Below, piece after piece: positions 41,027 through 59,515 of a stretch of 64,000 bases of DNA (within the stretch, counting starts at the first letter, position 1; each line of letters starts with the position of its first letter). The translations under genes and the position numbers were made by a program. This DNA comes from Microcoleus sp. FACHB-831. Its GTDB lineage: Bacteria; Cyanobacteriota; Cyanobacteriia; Cyanobacteriales; FACHB-T130. The notes under the pieces are model-generated. The model searched no databases, was not told the DNA's origin, and saw nothing but the letters and a program-made list of their open reading frames with translations. The stretch lies in the NCBI RefSeq assembly GCF_014695585.1, contig NZ_JACJON010000034.1, positions 62,001 to 126,000 of the forward strand. Reading direction: 5' to 3'.

Positions 41027-42214
41027 ATGGCTATTAGCAACCACGAACAAGTTGGGAGAGCTTTAACCTTTTTACGTCAAGGATTGTACCCGTATGTCGA
41101 GCGGGAAATGCAGGCCGTTTACGGCGATCGCTGGCTGACAGCCGCCACATCGAGCCTACCCTACGACCGGGGTGAAGAAGTTATGCGTGAGGACGTTTCT
41201 GCTTTACTAACAGTCATGTCAAGGCAGTGGGATAGCGTCTTCAAACAAAAACTGAGTTACGTTGAACGCGCTCTAGTGAGTGAAATAATTGAAATCCGCA
41301 ACAAATGGGCGCACAAACCTACCTTTTCTACAGATGACACCTATCGCGCTCTTGACAGTATTGCCCGGCTCCTCAAGGCTATTTCTGCATTAGAGGCAGA
41401 TACAGTAGAAAAGCAGAAGCAAGAAGTTATGCGAATCCTGTCTCAAGAGCAAACACGTTATGAAAATCGCCGTATTTCAGCTGAAGAATCTCGCATTAGA
41501 GAGAGATTCGATGAACTATTAAAACAACTGCCATTTCAGGATGCTTCTCTCCTACATCGCGCACTTACCCACCGCTCATACCTTTATGAAAACCCCAGAG
41601 AAGTAAGCGAGGACAACGAGCGCCTAGAGTTTCTGGGTGATGCTGTTCTGGGTTTTCTAAGCAGCGAGTTTATGTATAGTTTTTACCCGGAAATGAATGA
41701 AGCTCAAATGACTCGTCTACGCTCGGAGTTAGTCGATGAGGAACAATTGGCAAGATTTGCTAATGCCCTAGAGCTAGGCAAATGGATGCGACTAGGTAAG
41801 GGGACGATGATAGATGGAGGACGTACAAATTCTTTATTGCTTAGTAACACTTTTGAAGCAATTATCGGTGCTTACTTTCTTGATTCGGGCATTGATGCAG
41901 CCCGCGATTTGTTGTCACCTTTGTTTACATCGGTAGCTGAAGAAGTGGTTTCTTATCAGTCCGATGTAGACTCTCAGATTCTTGTAGACTCCAAGAATGT
42001 GTTTCAGCAGTGGGCGCAGGCGAACACTAGCTCGCTTCTCCCTAAGTACTTCACAATCAAGGAGGAAGGGCCATCTCACGATAAAAAGTTCACTGTTGAA
42101 GTGCGTGTGGGTGACACCAAGTATGGAAGCGGTACGGGGAGCAGCAAAAAAGATGCTGAAAAGCGTGCAGCTGAAGATGCGATCGCGAAGCTGAAAAAAC
42201 GAGGGCTGATGTAA
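41027..42214 (+). CDS. HEPN (Swt1-type)-ribonuclease III fusion protein
   Basis: 395 residues. Residues 160-395 are a full RNase III: signature NERLEFLGDAVL (197-208), a second catalytic segment SNTFEAIIGAYFLDSG (273-288) and a C-terminal double-stranded RNA-binding domain (about 320-392). Residues 1-125 are an extra domain absent from ordinary RNase III: EQVGRALTFLRQGLYPYVER, then RNKWAHKPTFSTDDTYRALD with the HEPN motif Arg91-x4-His96, matching my recollection of Swt1-family HEPN domains. A charged helix (126-160) links them. HEPN domains are usually RNases. The RNase III metal position aligned with E. coli Asp114 is Asn274, while Glu198, Glu201, Asp205 and Glu277 are kept. Not obviously in an operon. 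Confidence 0.9.
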   Translation: MAISNHEQVGRALTFLRQGLYPYVEREMQAVYGDRWLTAATSSLPYDRGEEVMREDVSALLTVMSRQWDSVFKQKLSYVERALVSEIIEIRNKWAHKPTFSTDDTYRALDSIARLLKAISALEADTVEKQKQEVMRILSQEQTRYENRRISAEESRIRERFDELLKQLPFQDASLLHRALTHRSYLYENPREVSEDNERLEFLGDAVLGFLSSEFMYSFYPEMNEAQMTRLRSELVDEEQLARFANALELGKWMRLGKGTMIDGGRTNSLLLSNTFEAIIGAYFLDSGIDAARDLLSPLFTSVAEEVVSYQSDVDSQILVDSKNVFQQWAQANTSSLLPKYFTIKEEGPSHDKKFTVEVRVGDTKYGSGTGSSKKDAEKRAAEDAIAKLKKRGLM

Positions 42215-43920: not shown

Positions 43921-43934
43921 GTAATCAAATATAC
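43921..43934. promoter_or_regulatory. NtcA-like site GTA-N8-TAC upstream of nirB
   Basis: GTAATCAAATATAC is an exact GTA-N8-TAC match, the core of sites bound by NtcA, the nitrogen regulator of cyanobacteria, located before a nitrite reductase gene. The expected TAN3T -10 element is not found 20-24 bases further on; the nearest TAN3T is at 43969. The site is plausible but unproven. Confidence 0.5.
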
Positions 43935-44002
43935 GAAATGCCACTTGAAGATTTTTTGAGCGGTCTTATAGGATGACTAAGACACAAAGCGCTGAGAAAT
44001 TT

Positions 44003-46546
44003 ATGACCGCCAAAAAGAATCTCGTAGTTATCGGTAACGGCATGGTTGGGCACAAGTTCTTAGAGTTGATGATCGCCAAAGGAGCGACGCAGCAATGGAA
44101 TTTAGTTACCTTCTGTGAAGAAACCCGCGTAGCTTACGATCGCGTCAACCTCAGCGGCTACTTTTCAGGCAAAACTGCCGCAGATTTATCTTTAGTTGAA
44201 CCCGGTTTATATCAAGAAAACGGTATTGAGATTCATATCGGTGATAAAGCAGTTGCCATCAACCGGGAAGAAAAAACAGTTACGTCGGCGAATGGAGTAG
44301 AAGTTACTTACGACAAGATTGTTCTTGCAACTGGTTCTTATCCTTTTGTGCCTCCTATTACGGGAAAAGATGCGCAAGGCACTTTTGTTTATCGGACAAT
44401 CGACGATCTAGAGGCAATGTCTGCCTACGCCAAAACTTGTAAAGTTGGGGTAGTTATTGGCGGTGGCTTATTAGGTTTGGAATGCGCTAACGCTCTCAAG
44501 AATATGGGTTTGACTACCCATGTTATTGAATTTGCACCGCGACTGATGCCAGTACAAATTGATGATGCTGGCGGTGCCATTCTCCGCAATAAAATAGAAG
44601 AACTTGGAGTGTCGGTTCATACCAACAAATCAACGACGGAAATTCTCAACGAAAACGGCAAAGTTGTGAAGATGCTGTTTGCTGACGGTTCCTTTTTGGA
44701 AACAGACATGATTGTGTTTTCAGCTGGAATTCGTCCCCGCGATGAGATTGCTAGAAATAGTGGAATAGAAGTAGGCGATCGCGGTGGAATTATTATCAAC
44801 GATTATTGTCAAACCTCCGATCCAAACATCTACGCTATTGGAGAATGCGCCCTCTACCAAAATCGCATCTACGGCTTAGTAGCACCCGGCTACACAATGG
44901 CAGGCGTCGTAGCAGATATCCTGAGCAACAGTGCGAAGAGCAGCTTTACTGGCGCGGATATGTCCACAAAACTAAAACTTTTGGGCGTGGACGTTGCCAG
45001 CTTTGGCGATAATTTTGCTAAAACTCCTGGTGCTAAAGAAATTGCGATCGCTGATTCAGTCCAAGGTGTTTACAAAAAGTTGGTTTTGAATCAGGATGGA
45101 ACTCTTTTATTAGGTGGAATTCTAGTAGGAGATGCATCTGCTTACGGCACGCTGCTGCAATTTATGCAGAATGCGATCGCTCTCCCACCCCATCCCGAAG
45201 ATTTGCTAATGCCGCCCCGCGAAGGGAAAGCCGCCGCAGTGGGTATGGGAGTAGACAGCCTACCCGATACAGCCCAAATTTGCTCTTGCAATAATGTCAG
45301 CAAGGCTCAAATTTGTACAGCTATTCAAGAAGGCAATATTACAGATATTGCTACACTCAAAAAATGTACCAAAGCTGGTACGGGTTGCGGCGGTTGCGTT
45401 CCCCTCGTGACAGATATCCTCAAGTCTGAGATGAAGAAAGCGGGGATAGAAGTTAAAAATAATCTCTGCGAACACTTCTCCTATTCTCGTCAAGAACTCT
45501 ATCATTTGGTGCGTACCCACAACATTAAAACCTTTGATGATTTGATTCACAGACACGGCAAGGGAATGGGTTGCGAAATTTGCAAGCCTGCTGTTGCTTC
45601 GATTCTCGCTTCTACTTGGAACGACCATATTTTAGAAACTCCCCATGTTAGTTTGCAGGATACTAATGATTACTACCTGGCAAACATTCAGCGGGATGGT
45701 ACTTATTCCGTAGTGCCTAGAGTTCCTGGCGGCGAGCTAACACCAGATAAGCTGATTGTATTAGGAGAAGTTGCCAAAGATTTTGGACTTTACACCAAGA
45801 TTACTGGCGGACAGCGCATCGATTTGTTTGGAGCGCGTGTAGATCAATTACCCCACATTTGGAGGCGATTGATAGATACTGGCTTTGAATCTGGACACGC
45901 TTATGGAAAAGCACTCCGCACTGTGAAATCTTGTGTCGGTAGTACGTGGTGTCGCTTTGGCGTGCAGGATTCTACAAGTTTGGCAATCGAGGTAGAATTG
46001 CGTTATCGCGGTTTAAGAGCGCCGCACAAACTCAAGTCTGCTGTCTCTGGTTGCACGCGGGAATGTGCCGAAGCTCAAAGCAAAGATTTTGGCATTATCG
46101 CAACAGAAAAAGGCTGGAATTTGTATGTGTGCGGTAATGGTGGCATGAAGCCTCAACACGCAGTATTGTTAGCCTCGGATATTGACAAGGAAACGCTGAT
46201 TAAGTATGTAGATCGGTTCTTGATGTTCTATATCCGCACGGCGAACAGACTTGAAAGAACGGCTACTTGGTTCAACAAATTAGAAGGTGGAATTGATTAC
46301 CTGAAGCAGGTGATTCTTGAAGATTCCTTGGGAATTTGTGCTGAGTTGGAAGCAGAAATGACGCACTTGATAAACACTTATGAGTGTGAGTGGAAAGCCA
46401 CGATAGAAGATCCAGAAAAAATTCAGCGTTTCCGCCATTTCGTGAATGATGATTCTCCCGATCCCAGTTTGGTGCATATAGAAGAGCGGGGCCAAAAGCG
46501 CCCAGCTTACGAACACGAAAAATCCCCAGTTGGTAGCTTAAATTAA
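44003..46546 (+). CDS. nirB: NAD(P)H-dependent nitrite reductase large subunit
   Basis: 847 residues from ATG 44003; the frame is open ten codons further to 43973, but family members begin only a few residues before the FAD motif LVVIGNGMVGHKF. Domains: FAD and NAD(P) binding (to about 390; VGVVIGGGLLGLECANAL), two BFD-like [2Fe-2S] segments (ICSCNNVSK...CGGC about 425-465, and CEHFSYSR...CEICKP about 488-530), then the sirohaem/[4Fe-4S] half with CVGSTWC and CTRECAEA (about 643-690), which holds the four cluster cysteines. It reduces nitrite to ammonium with pyridine nucleotide. Most cyanobacteria use ferredoxin-dependent NirA instead, so this form is noteworthy. nirD follows. Confidence 0.93.
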   Translation: MTAKKNLVVIGNGMVGHKFLELMIAKGATQQWNLVTFCEETRVAYDRVNLSGYFSGKTAADLSLVEPGLYQENGIEIHIGDKAVAINREEKTVTSANGVEVTYDKIVLATGSYPFVPPITGKDAQGTFVYRTIDDLEAMSAYAKTCKVGVVIGGGLLGLECANALKNMGLTTHVIEFAPRLMPVQIDDAGGAILRNKIEELGVSVHTNKSTTEILNENGKVVKMLFADGSFLETDMIVFSAGIRPRDEIARNSGIEVGDRGGIIINDYCQTSDPNIYAIGECALYQNRIYGLVAPGYTMAGVVADILSNSAKSSFTGADMSTKLKLLGVDVASFGDNFAKTPGAKEIAIADSVQGVYKKLVLNQDGTLLLGGILVGDASAYGTLLQFMQNAIALPPHPEDLLMPPREGKAAAVGMGVDSLPDTAQICSCNNVSKAQICTAIQEGNITDIATLKKCTKAGTGCGGCVPLVTDILKSEMKKAGIEVKNNLCEHFSYSRQELYHLVRTHNIKTFDDLIHRHGKGMGCEICKPAVASILASTWNDHILETPHVSLQDTNDYYLANIQRDGTYSVVPRVPGGELTPDKLIVLGEVAKDFGLYTKITGGQRIDLFGARVDQLPHIWRRLIDTGFESGHAYGKALRTVKSCVGSTWCRFGVQDSTSLAIEVELRYRGLRAPHKLKSAVSGCTRECAEAQSKDFGIIATEKGWNLYVCGNGGMKPQHAVLLASDIDKETLIKYVDRFLMFYIRTANRLERTATWFNKLEGGIDYLKQVILEDSLGICAELEAEMTHLINTYECEWKATIEDPEKIQRFRHFVNDDSPDPSLVHIEERGQKRPAYEHEKSPVGSLN

Positions 46547-46585
46547 CCGGGGCTGGCATAGGGTGGCATTGCTCGCCTAAATAGA

Positions 46586-46630
46586 GATGGTGGGCAGTGC
46601 CCCGGACTACACAAAACGGACTACACAAAA
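46586..46630. repeat. Dispersed extragenic repeat with a 14-bp tandem duplication
   Basis: GATGGTGGGCAGTGCCCCGG belongs to the same family as 30771 and 54991. Its end, CGGACTACACAAAA, occurs twice in direct tandem (46603-46616 and 46617-46630). It fills the nirB-nirD gap. Confidence 0.7.
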
Positions 46631-46652
46631 GCAAAATTTAGAGGAAAAGAAC

Positions 46653-47021
46653 ATGGTTCAAGCATTAGCGATTCGCGAACGTATTACCAATTGGGTGGAT
46701 GTGTGTCACCTTTCCGCTATTAAGCCTAATACTGGAGTTTGTGCCTTAGTAGAAAATCAACAGATAGCAATTTTTCGAGTGGGCAAAGATGCTGATTTGT
46801 ATGCAATTAGCAACTACGATCCTTTTAGCAAGACGTTCGTGCTGTCGAGGGGAATTATAGGCGATCGCAATGGTATTCCCAAAGTGGCATCACCGATTTA
46901 CAAGCAAAATTTCAACTTAATTACTGGACAATGTTTTGATGATGAAACTGTAAGCGTTCCCACTTATCTGGCTAGAGTGGTTAATGATAGAGTGCAAGTA
47001 GCAATTAGCGATCTCTCTTAA
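46653..47021 (+). CDS. nirD: Nitrite reductase small subunit NirD
   Basis: 122 residues from ATG 46653 with GAGGAAAAG upstream; the open frame extends left through the extragenic repeat but that part is not protein-like. It has the Rieske-like beta fold: WVDVCHLSAIKPNTGVCALV, IAIFRVGKDADLYAISNYDP, SRGIIGDRNGIPKVASPIYK and FNLITGQCFDDETVSVPTY. As in other NirD proteins the Rieske Cys-His cluster ligands are absent. It associates with NirB. It lies 106 bp after nirB, so likely one transcript. Confidence 0.9.
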   Translation: MVQALAIRERITNWVDVCHLSAIKPNTGVCALVENQQIAIFRVGKDADLYAISNYDPFSKTFVLSRGIIGDRNGIPKVASPIYKQNFNLITGQCFDDETVSVPTYLARVVNDRVQVAISDLS

Positions 47022-49296: not shown

Positions 49297-49564
49297 CCTG
49301 TTTTCTTCCTTGAATCTTTATTCAGCTTATATTTTTTTGTTTCCTTTCAATTATAAATCTTTCGACTTAAATTTGCTCTATCTAGAGTTCGCATTTATAT
49401 AAATAAAAATTGTGTTTTTAGATACAAAAAAACTAATAAGTTAATTTTAAGAAAAATTTATAATTTGCTATTAAAAGTTTAATTTGGCCAGCAGATACTA
49501 AATAATTATGCAATCGTCAAGCTAGACGGTTTTGAGTAAACGTGTTAAAATTGTGAAAAAATTG
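49297..49564. other. AT-rich upstream region of the transporter riboswitch
   Basis: Very AT-rich. The transporter promoter probably lies just before the riboswitch, but I cannot pick a convincing -35/-10 pair. No NtcA site was seen. Confidence 0.35.
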
Positions 49565-49745
49565 AGTAAGTCAGCCTAATCCGATGTTTCACCCGCATAT
49601 GCGAGGTGAAATTGGAACGGAGGAACCAACTTTTGGGGCGTATCTCTGCTTTTGTATATCTCTACTTAGGGAGGTGAGCAGAGAAGGACATCTCTCAGTC
49701 CTAGCCCGTCAGCTAACTTCGTAGGCATTGAGAGAAGACTGATAG
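49565..49745 (+). ncRNA. Cyclic di-AMP riboswitch (ydaO/yuaA type)
   Basis: The conserved ydaO/yuaA blocks occur in order: CCGATG at the start, a hairpin with TTTCACC/GGTGAAA arms, GGAACGGAGGAACCAAC, TTTTGGGGCGTATCT, a stem with AGGGAGGTGAGCAGAGA, and the 3' block AGCCCGTCAGCTAACTTCGT followed by GGCATTGAGAGAAGA. The pairing TCAG near 49571 with CTGA near 49739 closes the outer helix. Known members sense c-di-AMP and often govern potassium, osmolyte or wall genes. Here the RNA ends about 95 bp before the first gene of an NrtB/A/D-class transporter, in the leader of that operon. Confidence 0.8.
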
Positions 49746-49838
49746 AGTCAGCATTTTTATAAATTTCTGAACTCGTCAGTGTTCTCGGCTGGTACTGCTC
49801 GGCTTTCTTGTACCTGCTCATAACTCTGAGGATAAATA

Positions 49839-50690
49839 ATGATATTGCAGCTAAACTTGTCTGCGATCGCTGTTGCTGGGCAAATGGCCTGGAAAAAAGC
49901 GAAACCCGTAATATTACGGGATGTTGTAATACTTCCTGCCCTTGGGTTTTTGGGGCTGATCCTGCTGTGGTGGATTATAGCCCTGTGGCGAAGCGATTTG
50001 ATGCCCACCCCAGCTCAAGCTTTAGTCGCAAATTTAGACTTTATACTCAACCCATTTTATCAGCGCGGCCCCGGCGATTTAGGCATTGGGTGGCTATTAA
50101 TAGCCAGCTTGCGACGGGTATTAATTGGGTTTGGACTTGGTGCTATTGTTGCCATTCCGGTTGGTTTTCTCATCGGGATGTCCAAACCAGCAATGATGGC
50201 GCTAAATCCCGTTATTCAAATTCTCAAACCAGTATCGCCCCTGGCTTGGCTGCCCATTGCTTTAGCAATATTCAACTTGGCAGATCCATCGGCGATTTTT
50301 GTTATCTTCATCACTTCTTTGTGGCCGACAATTATCAACACTGCCCTTGGGGTTTCTAGCGTTTCCAAAGATTATATAGATGTGGCGAGAGTGCTGGAAA
50401 TGCCCCGGTGGCGACGAATTACCAAGATTATTTGGCCTGCAAGTTTGCCCTATATTTTCACAGGATTGCGGATAAGTTTGGGTATTGCTTGGCTAGTAAT
50501 CGTCGCTGTAGAAATGTTAACTGGCGGTGTTGGTATCGGCTTTTTTGTGTGGGATGAATGGAGCCGCTTAAACCTGAGTTCCGTGTTTTTGGCAGTGCTG
50601 GTAATTGGTTTAACTGGTCTGCTTCTAGATTATGCAGTGGGTCAACTTGAGGTTTTAGTTACTCGCCGCCGCCCGAAGCCTGTTTCTTAG
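49839..50690 (+). CDS. NrtB/CmpB-type ABC transporter permease
   Basis: 283 residues and about six membrane helices. The N-terminus has VVILPALGFLGLILLWWII, and the EAA-like loop that docks the ATPase is VARVLEMPRWRRITKIIWPA. The segment SPLAWLPIALAIFNLADPS is the NrtB/CmpB signature within the TauC/SsuC permease class. It probably forms a homodimer for nitrate/nitrite or bicarbonate uptake. First gene of an operon following a c-di-AMP riboswitch. Without biochemical data nitrate and bicarbonate cannot be separated. Confidence 0.88.
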   Translation: MILQLNLSAIAVAGQMAWKKAKPVILRDVVILPALGFLGLILLWWIIALWRSDLMPTPAQALVANLDFILNPFYQRGPGDLGIGWLLIASLRRVLIGFGLGAIVAIPVGFLIGMSKPAMMALNPVIQILKPVSPLAWLPIALAIFNLADPSAIFVIFITSLWPTIINTALGVSSVSKDYIDVARVLEMPRWRRITKIIWPASLPYIFTGLRISLGIAWLVIVAVEMLTGGVGIGFFVWDEWSRLNLSSVFLAVLVIGLTGLLLDYAVGQLEVLVTRRRPKPVS

Positions 50691-50882
50691 TTATTAACTC
50701 AGAGATTTTAGATTGGCACTTCTATTCAAAATAGAAAAAGTGCTAATTTCTAAAATCTTATTACTTGGATGCGATCGCTACTTCAATCGCAAGTTTTCTT
50801 TGGCGTCAATGGTATGGCAAAAGCTTGGCAATAGCTCAACCCAATGCGGTTGAGCAGACTTAAAGCATTAATGGAACAAACT

Positions 50883-52364
50883 ATGAGTGACACCACGAAC
50901 TGGACGCGGCGAAGTTTTATCACGGGGTTGGGTGCGACGGCGGCGGGAATGGCACTTTCTTCATGTGCAGTAAGCAGCGATTCGCCTGACGGCGATAGCT
51001 CCGCTTCACGCTCTGCCAAAGGCCTCACGGAAGAAGCTAGGGCAATTGAACAGGTAGTAAAACCCGGCGATTTAGAAAAATCTGACATTACCGTTGGATA
51101 CGTTCCCGTTAATGACTGCGCGCCCTTTGCGATCGCATGGAAAAAAGGATTTTTCCGCAAATACGGCCTTAACGTCAAACTCGTCCGCGAAGCTAGCTGG
51201 GCAACCTCACGCGACGGATTAATATTCGGTCGCACCGATGCCGCGCCTGTTGTATCCGGAGCCGTAACCAATGCCAGAATCGGAGCCGAAGGCGCACGCC
51301 ACGCTCCCATGTGTGCCGCTATGGTAATTCACCGTCACGGTAACGCCATGACGATGAACAAAGCCATGTGGGATTTTGGGTTGCGTCCCTGGTACGAGTA
51401 CCAACAACAGTACGGCGATCGCGCTTTAGAAGAATTTGGCAAACAATTTAAAGCCTACTTTGACAGCCAACCACCAGAACAGAGAGTTTGGGCTGTTGTA
51501 CTAAGTTCATCCATTTACGAATACTTCGTCCGCTATTTATCCGCCGCCGCCGGAGTCGATCCCATCAAAGAGTTTCGCATCATCATTGTTCCCCCGCCGC
51601 AGATGGTTAGTAACGTGCGGATTGGTGCAATGCAAGCCTACATGGTTGCAGAACCTTGGAATACACGAGCAATTTACGAAAAAGCAATTACTGGCGAACA
51701 GGGAATCGGTTTTACCTTCGCTCAAGGTAAAGAAGTATGGTTGGGACACCCAGACCGACTTTTGGGAGTTATGGAAGAATTTATTGATAAAAATCCCAAA
51801 ACTTATCGTTCCCTAGTCAAGGCAATGATTGAAGCCTGCCAGTATTGCAGCAAACCCGAAAACCACCAAGAAGTTGCCACGCTACTTACCGAGCGCTCGT
51901 TTACGGGTGCAAAACCTAAAAAAGGCCCAGTGGATAAGTTTACGCGCCCTGCAATTATGGGTGAATACAACTATGGGGGCTTTGATAGCAAAGACCGCAC
52001 TATAAAAGCCGCTGACGGCACAATTTTCTTCGATATTCCTAACGGCATTCCCAAACAGCCAGGAGAACATTCAACGTTTCTCTGGCGCTCTAGAAGCATT
52101 TGGTTGATGACTCAAGCAGCTCGTTGGGGACAAATTAAGGAATTTCCTAAAAATGCCGAAGAACTGGCAAGCAAAGGCTGGCGAACCGATCTCTATCGCA
52201 ATATTGCCGCCGAAATGGGAATTGAGTGCCCCAAAGATGATTACAAAGTCGAATCCCCTGAAGTCTTTATTGACAAAAAAGGCTTCGATCCCAGCGATCC
52301 AGTCGGCTATCTAAAAAGTTTTGAAATCCGCCATAATAGCCCGGTTTCTTTCTTCATGTCTTAA
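50883..52364 (+). CDS. NrtA/CmpA-type substrate-binding lipoprotein
   Basis: 493 residues from ATG 50883, chosen because GGAAC lies at good distance and a Tat signal follows (WTRRSFITGLGATAAGMAL) ending at a lipobox-like LSSC. Upstream ATGs at 50844 and 50871 are in frame but lack a better ribosome site. The mature protein has the NrtA/CmpA features: DITVGYVPVNDCAPFAIAW, FFRKYGLNVKLVREASW, AMVIHRHGNAMTMN and PWYEYQQQYGD. This family binds nitrate/nitrite (NrtA) or bicarbonate (CmpA), often with calcium in CmpA. Gene order B-A-D here differs from nrtABCD and cmpABCD. Confidence 0.87.
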   Translation: MSDTTNWTRRSFITGLGATAAGMALSSCAVSSDSPDGDSSASRSAKGLTEEARAIEQVVKPGDLEKSDITVGYVPVNDCAPFAIAWKKGFFRKYGLNVKLVREASWATSRDGLIFGRTDAAPVVSGAVTNARIGAEGARHAPMCAAMVIHRHGNAMTMNKAMWDFGLRPWYEYQQQYGDRALEEFGKQFKAYFDSQPPEQRVWAVVLSSSIYEYFVRYLSAAAGVDPIKEFRIIIVPPPQMVSNVRIGAMQAYMVAEPWNTRAIYEKAITGEQGIGFTFAQGKEVWLGHPDRLLGVMEEFIDKNPKTYRSLVKAMIEACQYCSKPENHQEVATLLTERSFTGAKPKKGPVDKFTRPAIMGEYNYGGFDSKDRTIKAADGTIFFDIPNGIPKQPGEHSTFLWRSRSIWLMTQAARWGQIKEFPKNAEELASKGWRTDLYRNIAAEMGIECPKDDYKVESPEVFIDKKGFDPSDPVGYLKSFEIRHNSPVSFFMS

Positions 52365-52457: not shown

Positions 52458-53297
52458 ATGACTCAATCTACTTCTTACCCCACAGGACAAAATATCATGG
52501 TTAACTCCCGCCAGGGATTTTTGGAAATTGAAAATCTTGTAAAGTCGTATCCAAGTGCTGACGGCAGTAAGTTTGTCGTCCTAGACGGTGTTAATCTCAG
52601 CATAAACGAAGACGAATTCATCTGCGTAATTGGTCACTCTGGTTGCGGTAAATCAACGCTACTAAAAATAGTCGCTGGTTTAGAACAACAGACTTCCGGC
52701 TCGGTGCGACTAGACGGCAAAGAAATTCGCAAACCCGGTGCAGAGCGCATGATGGTGTTCCAGCAATATTCTCTGCTTCCTTGGCTGACAGTGAAGGAAA
52801 ATATCCGTTTGGCGGTAGATGAAGTGCTAAAGAATGCCACTCGTGCCGAGAAAATCAGCATTGTTAACGAACACTTGGCAATGGTGAATTTAAACGCAGC
52901 CGCTGACAAATATCCCGATGAAATTTCTGGGGGAATGAAACAGCGAGTTGGCATTGCAAGAGCATTAGCAATTCGTCCGAAAATGTTACTGATGGATGAA
53001 CCATTTGGAGCGCTGGATGCGCTGACTAGGGGCAAGTTACAACGGCAAGTGCTGGAAATTTGGGAAAACCATAAGCAAGCGGTTATGATGATTACGCATG
53101 ATGTGGATGAAGCGCTGTATATGTCAGATAGGATCGTGCTGATGACTAATGGCCCCCACGCAAAAATTGGCGAAATTTTGGAAGTTCCTTTTCCTCATCC
53201 GCGCGATCGCCAAGAGTTACGCAACTCTCGCGAGTATTTTGAACTTCGCAACCATGCTCTCAACTTTCTAGATCGCTATTTTTCCCATGACGAGTAA
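52458..53297 (+). CDS. NrtD/CmpD-type ABC transporter ATPase
   Basis: 279 residues with AGGAG upstream. Walker A GHSGCGKST, Q-loop MMVFQQYSLLPWL, signature SGGMKQRVGIARAL, Walker B MLLMDEPFGALDA and the switch His in ITHDVDEAL are all present. It lacks the fused substrate-binding domain of NrtC/CmpC, so this operon has only a single ATPase gene. Together with the upstream permease and binding protein it forms a three-gene importer (permease, binding protein, ATPase). Confidence 0.9.
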   Translation: MTQSTSYPTGQNIMVNSRQGFLEIENLVKSYPSADGSKFVVLDGVNLSINEDEFICVIGHSGCGKSTLLKIVAGLEQQTSGSVRLDGKEIRKPGAERMMVFQQYSLLPWLTVKENIRLAVDEVLKNATRAEKISIVNEHLAMVNLNAAADKYPDEISGGMKQRVGIARALAIRPKMLLMDEPFGALDALTRGKLQRQVLEIWENHKQAVMMITHDVDEALYMSDRIVLMTNGPHAKIGEILEVPFPHPRDRQELRNSREYFELRNHALNFLDRYFSHDE

Positions 53298-53363: not shown

Positions 53364-54062
53364 GTGAATATCAAGTCAATGTTACTGCGCCTTGAAAGCG
53401 CAATGGGTCGTCAAGACTTAACGGAACAAATGCTTTTGGTGCCTACTCCTGCATCATCTTCTGAAGAGCGGGAGCAATTTACAAAATCGGTTAACCTAAT
53501 TGTTGGCTATAACAGATCCCCTAGCAGCCAAACAGCTCTAGATCTTACTCTATGGATTGCCCATCAAACTCGTTTAGTCACAAAGGCGCAAGTCACAGTT
53601 CAAGTTGTCTATGTTTTAGATAGCGAACTACCCACTAAAAGTTCAGATATCGTCAACTCAACCCCTCACATACCCTTGGAGTTTGCCGAATCATCTGCAT
53701 TAAGATCTCCTACCCCTGTTTTAACTCAACCATCACAAATGGCTATGGCAACACCGCCACGAGTAACCTCCATAGAGCCATCTTATTTAAGAGCTACCTT
53801 TTACCAAGATAATCACTTAGACCAAGCAAACCGCATATTATCCCAAGCACGCAGTCTCGCTGACGAATGGCGCGGTTCCTTCAAAGCCCATCTCCGCTTT
53901 GGTTGCGTTGCTGCGGAACTAAGAAAAGTTGTTGAATCTGAAGCGGCGGCTCTATTGTTTTTGGGCTGTACTTCTGCGAATCATCCACTTGTCCAGAAAT
54001 TAGGTGCTGATTTCCCCTGCCCGGTTTTGGGAATTCCTTCGGATTGCCACCAAGAAGATTAG
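53364..54062 (+). CDS. Universal stress protein-like protein
   Basis: 232 residues. The UspA-type Rossmann-like fold is suggested by NLIVGYNRSPSSQTALDLTL at the N-terminus, VTVQVVYVLDS, and ALLFLGCTSANHPLVQKLG near the C-terminus. A central Pro/Ser/Thr-rich insert of about 60 residues separates the strands, unusual for Usp proteins. The start is GTG 53364, with AAGGAGGT a little upstream. It lies 66 bp after the transporter ATPase and may share its transcript, ending at a clear terminator. Confidence 0.75.
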   Translation: MNIKSMLLRLESAMGRQDLTEQMLLVPTPASSSEEREQFTKSVNLIVGYNRSPSSQTALDLTLWIAHQTRLVTKAQVTVQVVYVLDSELPTKSSDIVNSTPHIPLEFAESSALRSPTPVLTQPSQMAMATPPRVTSIEPSYLRATFYQDNHLDQANRILSQARSLADEWRGSFKAHLRFGCVAAELRKVVESEAAALLFLGCTSANHPLVQKLGADFPCPVLGIPSDCHQED

Positions 54063-55836: not shown

Positions 55837-56371
55837 TCTTTACACTCCTTTATAAATCTTTACCCTTTCATCCTAATTTCCTGGATCGGCACTGAGGTCT
55901 GTCTAAAGATACAAGATAAATATATTGCTAAGGGCAGAGGAGTTATTAGCTTTGTTAAAAATACATCTATCGATAGAGATATGTATGTAACTTTAAAGCA
56001 CCTGCTAAGTGGTACGCCCAGCAGGTGCATAACATAAATGTTCAATCAAACTTAGTTATCCTCAAAACAAAAAGGGATAACAGCCAAAGATTATTCTTCC
56101 TTTTAGTGGTGAGGCGTTTACTTCCTTGGGTGGATGCTTTAATCAACCGTATTCGGTGATTCTGGGCTATAGAGTGTAGTTTTGCAAAAATTCAGACTTC
56201 TACTTAAAAAACCTCTAACTAGCAGCAAGCCACCAGCAATAAGCATAAAAGCGTGAACAATGAAGGATGAAACGTTTAAATTCATCCTTCACAATTTACG
56301 CATCGTGCTTTCGGATGAGAGCTGAGGGCTAAAAAATTTGCGCGGACATAAGCTTGGATGAAGGAAATACC
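55837..56371. other. Intergenic region between the hli cluster and the repeat-protein gene
   Basis: 535 bp between divergent genes. Contains GCACCTGCT (55998-56006) facing AGCAGGTGC (56020-56028), a 9-bp inverted repeat of unknown use. No gene is seen. Confidence 0.45.
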
Positions 56372-59300
56372 ATGTTACAAAGTACAGGAATGACTTGGGG
56401 GCTGTGCAAAACACTATTCTGGCTCGGTCAGGTTCCCGTGGATAACACAGCAACCACGCCCAAAGAGGCAGCGTTTATATTTGCAGGGCCGCAGTTTTTG
56501 ATGGCATTGGTTGCTGGGGTGGTTCTGGCGTTTGCAATCCAATTGCTGATAACAAACTTGGGTGTTGCCTACTTATTGGGAAATACCTCAGATTCTAAAT
56601 CGCATGATGACGATGCAGACAGCTTAGGAACCAGCATTCGCAAAATTGGAACCGCGCTAGGGTTGGCAACATTAATCAGTGTAACGGTTGCCTTATCCAT
56701 AGCTTGTTTCCTAGCAGTGAAACTGAGCCTAAATAACAGCGATCGCTTCTTGGGAGCTATTATAGGCTTAGTAATTTGGGGGACTTATTTTTCCCTACTC
56801 GTCTGGGTGGGTTCGGCAAAAGTCGGTTCCTTAATCGGTTCGGTAGTTAATGCCGCAAGTTCCGGATTGCAAACAATTTTTGGAACAGCAACCGCCGCAC
56901 TGGGAGCAAAAGCAGTAAACGATCAGGTTGTGGCGACAGCCGAAGCAGCAGCCGTAGCGGTGCGCCGCGAATTGGGGTCAGCGATAGACCCAACAAGCAT
57001 ACGCGAGACGCTAGAAGATTATTTTGATAGGCTGCGACCAGCAGAACTAGACCTCAAATCAATTCGGGGCGAATTTGAAAAATTGCTCAACGATCCCCAA
57101 TTGAAAGCGATCGCTCCAGAAAATCTCCGCGACATCGACAGATCGAAGTTTGTTGAATTAGTCAGCAGTCGCACCGACCTCTCGAAGCGAGACGTGAAAA
57201 GAATCGTCGATCAGCTAGAGAATGTCTGGAAACAGGTTGTAGACCAGCAAGCGCCTCAAGCTAAAAATGGGATGGGCGAATTGTTGGACTATCTCAAATC
57301 GGCTTCCCCAGATAAGCTGACGAACGAACTAGGCGGAAAGCTCGATCAGCTGATTGGAGAAATGCGCTCGAATAAACAGCCGGGAGAAAACCAAGATCAA
57401 CAAACTCCAGGTATGATGGATCGCTTAATCACTACGCTAAGCCCAGTTCTTGGCGTGGTAATGGGCAGAACCGATATATCGGATCTCGATCTCGAAAAAA
57501 TTCTGGGTCAGCTACAAACAGCTAAAGCCAAAGTAAACGAGGTAAGCGATAAAATAGCAGGCGAGGTTAGCGGTACCCCAGCGCTTCCTTACAGCACCAT
57601 TCGCGCCGACGTAGATAACTACCTGCTCAACACATACTCGTGGCAGATGAAGCCAGAAGTGCTGGCGCAGGAATTTCGGGATGTTATCTACGATCCGCAA
57701 GCAGATCCCAAGAAAGTTCGCCAGCAAATAGAGCAGTTGAAGCGGTCAGATTTTGTAGATTTGCTGCAACAGCGGGGCATATTTACTCAAGCCAAAATCA
57801 ACGAAATTGCCGATCGGCTAGAAGCCGTCCGCCAAGATGTTTTGGCAACAGTGCGGCAAGCTGAAGAAGAAGAAAAGATATCAACACTCCGCAAGAGTGT
57901 AGAAAATTATCTGCGCTACACTCCAGTCGAACAATTGTCGCAAGAAGCAATCGATCGAGATTTCCCAGCGTGGCTGGAAGATCCCGACGCAGACTATGAA
58001 ACGGTGCGTCGTCGCCTTGCAGTGTTTGACCGCGACACGCTTTTGCAAATGCTGTTAGCTCGGACAGATATAAATGCAGCACAAGCCGAGCCGATAGTAA
58101 CGAATTTGATAAGCACCCGCGATCGCGTCTTAACAGATGCTCAGTCGCAAGAAGAACAAGCCAAATCTCAAGCAGAGGCGTTGTGGCTCAAGGTAGAGTC
58201 TTATCTGCGTAACACTGGTAAGGATGAACTGAATCCAGAAGGCATCAAGCGGGATTTAAGTTTGTTCTTAGACGATCCCCGTATAGGATTGAGTTTAGTG
58301 CGTGCCCGTGCGTCTCGCTTTGACCGCGATACCTTAGTGCAATTGCTCTCATCGCGCCAAGACATAAGCCAGGATCAAGCGAATCAGATCGTAGATCAAG
58401 TGCAGAGCCGCTGGAATAGCGTTATGCATGCACCGCAAGCAGTAGCAGATAAAGCTAAAGAGTTGACTGGTACGGCTAAAGACCAGTACGACAAAACAAC
58501 AAATACGATCGCCGAGTACCTCCGCAACACTGGCAAGGACGAACTCAACCCCGAAGGCATCAAGCGCGATTTGCAGAAATTGTTGGACGATCCCAAAGGA
58601 GGAGCGCTGGCGCTGCGCGATCGCGTAAGTAATATCGACCGCGATACCCTCGTCAAGCTGCTCAGCCAACGGCAAGATCTCAGCGAGGAGCAAGTCAATC
58701 AAATCATCGATCAGGTGCAAGAAAACCTTCGCAGCATCGTCAGAGCGCCCCGCCGCTTAGCTGCTCGTACTCAAGCCAAAGTACAGGATTTTCAATCAAC
58801 TCTTCAAGAGTACCTGCGGAACACTGGGAAGGACGAACTCAATCCCGAAGGTATCAAGCGCGACTTGCAATTGTTGCTGCACGATCCCCGAACTGGAGTG
58901 GAGAGTTTTGCCGACCGCCTATCTAAGGTTGACCGCGAAACAGTAGTCTCGCTCTTGTCGCAACGCCCGGATATTTCTGAAGAAGAAGCGAACCGAATTG
59001 TGGATCAAGTCTTGGCGGTGCGCGAGCAATTTGTAGAACAAGTTCGCGATATCCAGCGTCGCATTCAATCGGTTATTGATGGGGTATTTGCCAAAATTCG
59101 CAATTACCTCAACTCGCTGGATCGGCCAGAACTTAACTATGACGGCATCAAGCACGATGTTCGCACCTTGTTTGATGACCCGCAAGCTGGTTTTGATGCT
59201 CTCAAAGATCGCCTTGGTCACTTTAATCGCGATACCGTAGTAGCGCTCCTCAGTTCCCGCGAGGATATCTCGGAAGCTGACGCCAATCGCATCGTAGACC

Positions 59301-59515
59301 AGATCGAACGGACGCGCACGAGCGTGCTTCAACGGGCGGAACGCTTGCAGCAAGAAGCGCAACGACGGGTGGAAGATGTTAAACGGCAAGCCCAGCGCCA
59401 AGCCGAGGAAACCCGCAAAGCCGCAGCTACAGCAGCATGGTGGTTGTTTGGCACGGCAGCTACCTCAGCAATTGCTAGCGCGATCGCTGGAGCATTAGCA
59501 GTCCGGGGCGGTTAA
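56372..59515 (+). CDS. Large membrane-anchored tandem-repeat protein of unknown function
   Basis: 1047 residues from ATG 56372, which has AAGGA eight bases before; an ATG six codons earlier is in frame but lacks this. Three N-terminal membrane helices (about 20-165) are followed by at least seven copies of an approximately 80-residue unit and a final hydrophobic segment (WWLFGTAATSAIASAIAG). Each unit has YLRNTGKDELNPEGIKRDL, a LLDDP turn, then DRDTLVKLLSQRQDLSEEQ and ANQIVDQVQ; early units diverge (IRETLEDYFDRLRPAELDLK). An incomplete unit (RTDISDLDLEKILGQLQ) lies near residue 370. The repeat region is hydrophilic and helical. No known domain; perhaps a scaffold at the plasma or thylakoid membrane. 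Confidence 0.85.
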   Translation: MLQSTGMTWGLCKTLFWLGQVPVDNTATTPKEAAFIFAGPQFLMALVAGVVLAFAIQLLITNLGVAYLLGNTSDSKSHDDDADSLGTSIRKIGTALGLATLISVTVALSIACFLAVKLSLNNSDRFLGAIIGLVIWGTYFSLLVWVGSAKVGSLIGSVVNAASSGLQTIFGTATAALGAKAVNDQVVATAEAAAVAVRRELGSAIDPTSIRETLEDYFDRLRPAELDLKSIRGEFEKLLNDPQLKAIAPENLRDIDRSKFVELVSSRTDLSKRDVKRIVDQLENVWKQVVDQQAPQAKNGMGELLDYLKSASPDKLTNELGGKLDQLIGEMRSNKQPGENQDQQTPGMMDRLITTLSPVLGVVMGRTDISDLDLEKILGQLQTAKAKVNEVSDKIAGEVSGTPALPYSTIRADVDNYLLNTYSWQMKPEVLAQEFRDVIYDPQADPKKVRQQIEQLKRSDFVDLLQQRGIFTQAKINEIADRLEAVRQDVLATVRQAEEEEKISTLRKSVENYLRYTPVEQLSQEAIDRDFPAWLEDPDADYETVRRRLAVFDRDTLLQMLLARTDINAAQAEPIVTNLISTRDRVLTDAQSQEEQAKSQAEALWLKVESYLRNTGKDELNPEGIKRDLSLFLDDPRIGLSLVRARASRFDRDTLVQLLSSRQDISQDQANQIVDQVQSRWNSVMHAPQAVADKAKELTGTAKDQYDKTTNTIAEYLRNTGKDELNPEGIKRDLQKLLDDPKGGALALRDRVSNIDRDTLVKLLSQRQDLSEEQVNQIIDQVQENLRSIVRAPRRLAARTQAKVQDFQSTLQEYLRNTGKDELNPEGIKRDLQLLLHDPRTGVESFADRLSKVDRETVVSLLSQRPDISEEEANRIVDQVLAVREQFVEQVRDIQRRIQSVIDGVFAKIRNYLNSLDRPELNYDGIKHDVRTLFDDPQAGFDALKDRLGHFNRDTVVALLSSREDISEADANRIVDQIERTRTSVLQRAERLQQEAQRRVEDVKRQAQRQAEETRKAAATAAWWLFGTAATSAIASAIAGALAVRGG

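Follow-up and report, generated by a model that had tools for sequence, protein, structure and literature searches.

A c-di-AMP riboswitch is paired across cyanobacteria with an Nrt-like ABC transporter that probably imports a small anion other than nitrate or bicarbonate

In Gram-positive bacteria c-di-AMP is familiar above all for signalling in potassium and wall control, and we know of few direct c-di-AMP gene targets in cyanobacteria. In this study we analyzed a stretch of 64 kb from Microcoleus sp. FACHB-831 (the window), in which a first-pass annotation had placed a ydaO/yuaA c-di-AMP riboswitch at 49565-49745, suggesting a covariance-model search as a check. Scanning the window with cmscan gave a match to the ydaO/yuaA family RF00379 within four bases of the proposed element. 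It covers the complete model (positions 1-134), exceeds the gathering score of 38 bits, and is the sole Rfam match above gathering score within the 64 kb. The riboswitch in front of the transporter operon is confirmed. The following features make up the locus.

49523-49551, + strand: promoter-like TAGACG-17 nt-TAAAAT with TG before the -10 (3 in the region, 3.2 expected; weak on its own)
49563-49741, + strand: c-di-AMP riboswitch aptamer, RF00379, 76.5 bits, E 5.4e-16
49691-49696, + strand: pseudoknot loop strand UCUCUC, pairing with 49730-49735
49730-49735, + strand: pseudoknot tail strand GAGAGA, the last two bases common to hairpin A
49734-49784, + strand: expression-platform hairpin A, with 96.3% and 95.5% pairing in its helices over 45 leaders
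49788-49817, + strand: hairpin B with GGUAC...GUACC core, 86.6% paired
49827-49831, + strand: Shine-Dalgarno (SD)-like UGAGG, from sequence, 7 nt 5' of the ATG at 49839
49839-50690, + strand: ABC permease, NrtB-like, 283 aa (TIGR01183, 240.2 bits, cut-off 209.05)
50844-52364, + strand: substrate-binding protein (SBP) with twin-arginine and lipobox signal, 506-aa ORF (PF13379, E 1.1e-61)
52458-53297, + strand: ABC ATPase, NrtD-like, 279 aa (TIGR01184, 367.7 bits, cut-off 291.8)
53364-54062, + strand: Usp-domain protein (PF00582, 24.9 bits, cut-off 24)

The aptamer is the only one found in the genome, as a search of the 6.4-Mb assembly (85 contigs, 99.4% complete) returned no second RF00379 match. 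Also encoded in this genome are a single DAC domain protein (PF02457, E 4.5e-38) and a single 7TM-HD protein (PF07698, E 1.8e-29). DAC-type proteins make c-di-AMP, and the 7TM-HD type probably degrades it.

Profile matches bore out the earlier assignment of the downstream genes to the NrtB/A/D or CmpB/A/D class, the three proteins being NrtB-, NMT1_2/SBP- and NrtD-like. The permease starts 97 nt after the end of the aptamer. Both permease and ATPase pass the NCBIfam nitrate models, and these models will therefore label the operon a nitrate transporter. The binding protein matched general models only in Pfam (PF13379 with 209.2 bits and, barely, PF09084 with 22 vs 20.5 bits), and in NCBIfam only the Tat signal was recognized. 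The family alignment suggests that translation of this protein begins at 50883, within the ORF that opens at 50844; in the alignment of its clade the twin arginine is present in 49 of 49 sequences and the lipobox cysteine in 45. The ATPase is single and short, without the C-terminal regulatory domain of NrtC and CmpC, and the proteins of its cluster among the genes called in 51 transporter loci (n=49, see below) measure 174-361 aa. The fourth gene, missing from the gene list of the first-pass annotation, lies 66 nt 3' of the ATPase gene without an aptamer of its own. In an alignment of 28 of 73 Usp proteins (that of the window and 72 found by tblastn) PF00582 was present in 27 at E 0.01; one distant member of the Usp cluster had no PF00582 match. 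The AlphaFold2 model of the Usp protein of the window (pLDDT 49.4) was too poor for use.

Other genes of the window deserve mention. An NADH-type nitrite reductase (nirB and nirD) is encoded at 43973-47021 (+ strand), and a GTAN8TAC motif lies at 43921, 52 bp 5' of nirB. In the protein encoded at 41027-42214 (+ strand), RNase III and a dsRNA-binding domain are preceded by a Swt1-like HEPN domain, an unusual N-terminal addition to RNase III. The ORF at 56354-59515 (+ strand) encodes a protein of 1053 aa that has hydrophobic stretches at its N-terminus and long repeats in its interior; members of its cluster (c5, n=21) occur downstream of riboswitch genes, mostly in family f6.

We scanned 386 cyanobacterial genomes, drawn evenly across the phylum, for RF00379, scoring at most eight candidates per genome with stricter filters, so that absence from a genome is not proof. 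This gave 140 matches in 93 genomes, 138 of them above the gathering score; the two weaker ones kept came from G233 (29.5 bits), one of the 51 loci, and G129 (29.9 bits). Genes were called with our own ORF caller, and the first same-strand gene at any distance among the first six called was taken as the first gene 3' of the aptamer. This gene encoded the transporter permease in 52 of 140 cases, from 52 genomes, 34 genera and 15 families. The 52 include G060, in which the binding-protein ORF overlaps an open permease frame; leader alignments and leader counts rest on the 51 permease-type leaders without it. In G278 the aptamer, the permease and the ATPase are present, and a search for the binding protein did not find it.

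The remaining aptamers precede a Usp gene (41/140), a CitMHS/ArsB-type carrier (29/140) or, less often, a glycosyltransferase (4), ExoD (2), a Na+/H+ exchanger with Usp domain (2) or a P-type cation ATPase (1). Ten further first genes were of other kinds in the first tally, including one case without a gene called and G060, later recognized as a permease. One member of the CitMHS/ArsB cluster was scanned, and its best NCBIfam models were ArsB and DASS-type carriers, all below cut-off. Across genomes the aptamers co-occur with ion-carrier genes by class, the genome of the window having its one aptamer only. In a few genomes aptamers lie before, or in operons beside, ExoD and P-type cation ATPase genes (L038, L052, L054 and L118). 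A downstream Usp gene with a second aptamer of its own was present in 17 of the 51 transporter loci, and seven loci, including the window, had Usp among the called genes without a second aptamer; in four of these seven (G000, G099, G203 and G354) it follows the ATPase gene by 46-66 nt. No Usp was among the called genes of the other 27 loci. By tblastn, a Usp homologue was found in 72 of the best 80 of 273 named loci.

Members of the clade to which the binding protein of the window belongs were found in 54 of the 386 genomes, scoring 840-988 bits against 470 for the next match. In 51 of the 54 the aptamer lies directly upstream of the transporter; for two of these (G008 and G039) contig ends divide the locus and we inferred the join. 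The other three genomes kept pieces of the leader. G048 and G064 keep 40 nt that match a related leader at 95% identity and include the first 29 aptamer bases, together with a 32-nt piece of the promoter region; the remainder of the aptamer is lost, and cmscan at permissive settings detected no RF00379 in either leader. G070 retains the last 49 aptamer positions, truncated by the end of the contig; this remnant lies some 530 nt 5' of the permease gene and scores 35.9 bits, under the cut-off. As judged by eye, a decayed copy stands closer to the permease. The leader-piece search gave 0/150 matches in shuffled sequence. The pieces stand before intact transporter operons (L280:4153-4192 for G064, L279 for G048, L269 for G070).

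The named loci overlap the 386-genome sample and so are not an independent sample; among the best 80 of 273 the aptamer was upstream in 79, 72 of them recognized by the core motif, which had no matches on the other strand or in shuffled sequence, and the other 7 with cmscan. The one locus lacking it, L219 of Dolichospermum sp. ST_sed8, probably comes from the genome sampled as G048. Of the named relatives in this set Trichocoleus sp. FACHB-40 (L159) is the closest, with a binding protein 90% identical. The two counts, 51/54 genomes and 79 of these best 80 loci, rule out a one-off riboswitch, and the pairing of aptamer and transporter is old and near-obligate. Searching 3' of the 89 non-permease aptamers revealed transporter pieces in G005, G129, G174 and, weakly, G320. 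In G129 the 29.9-bit aptamer (C7:1961235-1961414) runs straight into pieces of the binding-protein and ATPase genes, and directly after this decayed operon comes another aptamer, of 72.1 bits, with a Usp gene. Genomes in which the riboswitch decayed and the transporter was kept (G048 and G064), and the reverse (G129 and G174), offer natural comparisons.

A pseudoknot between a loop and the tail of the aptamer has been described for the RF00379 class. Its six pairs form in 125, 130, 139, 139, 139 and 140 of the 140 aptamers, with compensatory types UCUCUC/GAGAGG and, in Usp leaders, CCUUCC/GGAAGG. To describe the expression platform we aligned 45 of the 51 transporter leaders; the six with a divergent platform (L101, L118, L127, L133, L146 and L149) were left out, and the covariation counts accordingly lean towards leaders that share the platform. 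Two hairpins follow the aptamer. Changes on both sides were found in 6 of the 11 pairs of hairpin A, which RNAalifold found, and in 5 of the 7 pairs of hairpin B. Of all cells in the combined 18 pairs 92.3% are paired, 11 pairs have double changes, and none of 500 shuffles was as high on any of five covariation measures. Sliding one partner by 1-3 columns lowered pairing to 32-47%, with double changes still in 5-8 pairs; these leaders had partly served to find the helices, and the counts therefore favour them over the slid versions. Bases 49734-49735 belong both to the tail strand of the pseudoknot and to the 5' strand of hairpin A.

How the platform acts is less clear from its sequence. A search of both strands for terminators found 2 vs 1.9 expected, none above chance, and the 130 nt behind the aptamer, folded alone, were no better than shuffles (z -0.88). 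A simple terminator switch is thus unsupported, the terminator-like stems being weak and the U-run in hairpin B missing from some leaders. In 18 of the 45 leaders, against 4.1 expected from shuffling with kinship ignored, anti-SD pairing between the SD sequence and the 3' strand of hairpin B extends to at least four bases; in the leader of the window it extends to only three.

Upstream of the aptamer, an extended -10-like TGNTA occurs within 8-53 nt in 39 of 51 leaders, compared with 5-12 of 51 in five control windows, and no clear peak at one fixed -10 position was seen across the leaders. This excess makes a transcription start before the aptamer probable. A start inside or after the element, named in the first-pass annotation as an outcome that would speak against it, is unlikely by the same count, which answers the point in part. 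Its observation that the operon has no NtcA site held for the window and for the family: no GTAN8TAC was present in the 200 nt before the aptamer of the window, and the motif occurred within this distance in 3 of 51 leaders vs 2.95 expected, which is no excess.

We next consider the binding protein. In the PDB it matched chains of CmpC and NrtC best (215.9-217.1 bits), the matching part being the C-terminal regulatory domain (CRD) of these chains; NrtA (158.8 bits) and CmpA (144.2 bits) came next. The genome encodes two other binding proteins, both nearer NrtA than CmpA (603.8 vs 411.6 and 541.5 vs 387.8 bits), and each of these two Nrt-type sets lies near a fused ATPase-regulatory-domain protein of 666-672 aa. 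The protein of the window shares 29% identity with both NrtA-like proteins, and 36% and 33% with the two regulatory domains of its own genome. The operon was ruled out as the NrtABCD of this genome, whose NrtA is encoded on another contig (L150) behind an ORF read as ferredoxin-type nirA. A tree was calculated from 37 proteins, 21 taken from the 49 in the clade and 16 from outside it; one partial NrtA was left out. The riboswitch-linked proteins formed one clade (support 100/100, stem 1.01 changes per column), which in the unrooted tree grouped with nine stand-alone regulatory-domain-like lipoproteins, apart from CRDs and NrtA (99/96).

Nitrate clusters surround four of these nine stand-alone proteins. 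The cluster reads nirA-B-A-C-D-narB in G118 and B-A-C-D-narB in G135, and the proteins of G360 and G197 have nirA, nrtP and narB as neighbours. NirA and NrtP of these clusters pass NCBIfam cut-offs; narB is our reading of nitrate-reductase-type molybdoenzymes that score below curated cut-offs, in G197 identified by BLAST only. Further stand-alone lipoproteins of this kind (L273, L274, L275, L276 and L277) have a strongly altered pocket (W/S/D/S/K in the order of contacts given below) and no transporter permease or ATPase directly beside them in the stretch fetched.

NrtA contacts nitrate through Trp102, Gln155, His196, Gly240 and Lys269 (PMC13204499, excerpt). We transferred these positions by alignments to 2g29, for which a constant offset of 29 fits all five. 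The riboswitch-linked clade has W/N/Y/A/R in 49 of 49 aligned sequences, so that four of the five nitrate contacts are replaced (Gln by Asn, His by Tyr, Gly by Ala, Lys by Arg) and Trp is kept. The NrtA of the same genome has W/Q/H/G/K, and the five regulatory domains and the stand-alone proteins of G118 and G135 have W/N/H/G/K; the other stand-alone proteins are variable at the remaining contact positions. Lys at the Lys269 position is kept in 17 of 17 others (3 NrtA-type, 5 regulatory-domain and 9 stand-alone proteins). In the clade this position is Arg305 throughout (49/49), and the acidic Glu of CmpA, which reads W/N/Q/G/E in the alignments, is absent. With Arg at this position the pocket is still positively charged, as suits an anion. 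As predicted from these alignments it differs from both the nitrate and the bicarbonate pocket, and the transporter is, on the sequence evidence, neither NrtABCD nor CmpABCD. The second Nrt-like set of this genome (L151 and L153) has Ser at the His196 position and perhaps another substrate, e.g. cyanate or nitrite.

The first-pass annotation had left two options, c-di-AMP control of nitrogen or carbon import, or transport of another, osmotically important solute. The separate clade, the changed pocket and the two Nrt-type sets elsewhere in the genome favour the second, and the interpretation as a whole is partly supported. We consider it reasonably probable that the operon encodes a distinct importer of a small anion other than nitrate or bicarbonate, controlled by a c-di-AMP riboswitch within an ion/osmotic regulon. 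With no NtcA site and no PII/nitrate regulatory domain, the operon appears to be under c-di-AMP control, in a regulon with Usp and CitMHS/ArsB-type carriers.

Other readings have to be weighed against this one. The transporter could be a nitrate/nitrite importer, an Nrt paralogue tied to c-di-AMP and not to NtcA/PII, with uptake matched to the osmotic or day/night state. Permease and ATPase score above the cut-offs of the NrtB and NrtD models, and the exchange of Lys for Arg at the Lys269 position retains a positive charge, so nitrate or nitrite may still bind. The occurrence of four of the nine stand-alone relatives in nitrate clusters (e.g. nirA-B-A-C-D-narB and nirA-SBP-nrtP-narB), together with the NADH-type nirB-nirD 2.5 kb 5' of the aptamer, also runs counter to a new substrate. 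However, four of five nitrate contacts are changed in all 49 clade members while the Lys is kept in all 17 others, NtcA motifs show no excess, two Nrt-type sets are already present, and the co-regulated genes are mostly carriers and Usp; we consider a nitrate/nitrite importer unlikely, though it is the strongest of the alternatives.

The operon could also encode a bicarbonate importer like CmpABCD that, in common with other carbon-concentration genes, came under c-di-AMP. This would agree with the loss of the cyclase in Synechocystis, which de-represses BCT1, SbtA and BicA (PMC10117731, excerpt), and among PDB entries a CmpC chain does score highest with the binding protein, about 1 bit ahead of the NrtC chains. 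Yet this match concerns the regulatory domain, which is reported to sense nitrate and not bicarbonate (PMC13249358, excerpt), and W/N/Q/G/E of CmpA stands against W/N/Y/A/R here, with Arg in place of the acidic residue, which makes this reading improbable. Finally, the riboswitch could be a relic, non-functional here, with transcription starting after the aptamer. Such decay does occur, as seen from the leader pieces in G048, G064 and G070 and the transporter pieces behind aptamers in G129, G174 and G005. The full-length match with its conserved core, the retained platform pairs and the promoter-like element upstream of the aptamer argue for an intact element, and we give the relic very little credence.

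For the importer of another small anion we propose the following working model. Permease, lipoprotein binding protein, ATPase and Usp protein would be made from one four-gene transcript under the c-di-AMP riboswitch, transcription probably beginning just before the aptamer. At high c-di-AMP the aptamer would fold with its pseudoknot, and the two bases shared by its tail and hairpin A may be the point at which pseudoknot and hairpin A compete, shifting the platform. By analogy with what is assumed for this riboswitch class, the shift would most likely lower expression. The transporter may descend from nitrate-type importers, its pocket re-tuned by exchange of Lys for Arg and of His for Tyr with Trp retained, and, judging from its context, would import a small anion whose uptake needs limiting when c-di-AMP signals a high ion load, the Usp protein presumably acting in the same response. 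The full history, in which an early duplicate of a nitrate-type importer lost its regulatory domain and NtcA control, had its pocket rebuilt and acquired a c-di-AMP leader for osmotic-anion uptake switched between pseudoknot and hairpin A, is more tentative; we regard it as possible and a little short of even.

A riboswitch operon conserved across 15 families would provide a direct read-out of c-di-AMP in filamentous and terrestrial cyanobacteria. Our data also suggest that the automatic label 'nitrate transporter' is wrong for the whole clade. If so, an unnamed osmotic-anion uptake system is present in 54 of the 386 cyanobacterial genomes and is scored today as a nitrate transporter. The riboswitch class and the control of carriers by c-di-AMP are already known, cyanobacteria included. 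In the literature searched we found no description of the transporter clade or of its pairing with the riboswitch; the 2013 target survey may list the transporter.

The system shares with NrtABCD the permease and ATPase families and a PF13379 binding protein with a Tat lipoprotein signal. It differs in the low identity of this protein to the NrtA-like proteins of its own genome (29%), the single nitrate contact kept out of five, the gene order B-A-D without NrtC, and the absence of an NtcA site. CmpABCD (BCT1) belongs to the same superfamily, and the binding protein of the window matches the C-terminal domain of CmpC, but here there is no fused CmpC, and the position of Lys269 is Arg instead of the Glu of CmpA. 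The nearest relatives are the CRDs of NrtC and CmpC and the stand-alone CRD-like lipoproteins; with the CRDs the clade shares Asn at the Gln155 position. PII acts on the regulatory domain of NrtC, and the corresponding domain of CmpC is the reported nitrate sensor (PMC13249358, excerpt). In contrast to the CRD-like proteins, the clade has His to Tyr, Gly to Ala and Lys to Arg changes in its pocket, and a riboswitch transporter operon of its own in place of a nitrate-cluster context.

Compared with ydaO/yuaA riboswitches, such as that of Bacillus subtilis ydaO/kimA, the aptamer of the window is alike in matching the full covariance model above the curated score. It differs in its target, an Nrt-like ABC importer with a Usp gene, and in its platform, where two hairpins covary and no clear terminator is present. 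B. subtilis ydaO is reported to have a terminator and to act as an OFF switch, and control of translation is supposed for Corynebacterium glutamicum nlpC (PMC9960051, excerpt); kdpFABC of B. thuringiensis is another case of a c-di-AMP riboswitch (PMC6488665, excerpt). As described in papers citing Nelson et al. 2013, cyanobacterial targets of c-di-AMP riboswitches include osmoprotectant synthesis and transport. In Synechocystis, slr0753, a putative chloride efflux carrier, is controlled by such a riboswitch (PMC10117731, excerpt). Its leader resembles that of the window as a cyanobacterial RF00379 element before a carrier, just as 29 of our 140 aptamers precede CitMHS/ArsB-type genes; the two differ in transporter class, the window encoding an importer with binding protein and ATPase.
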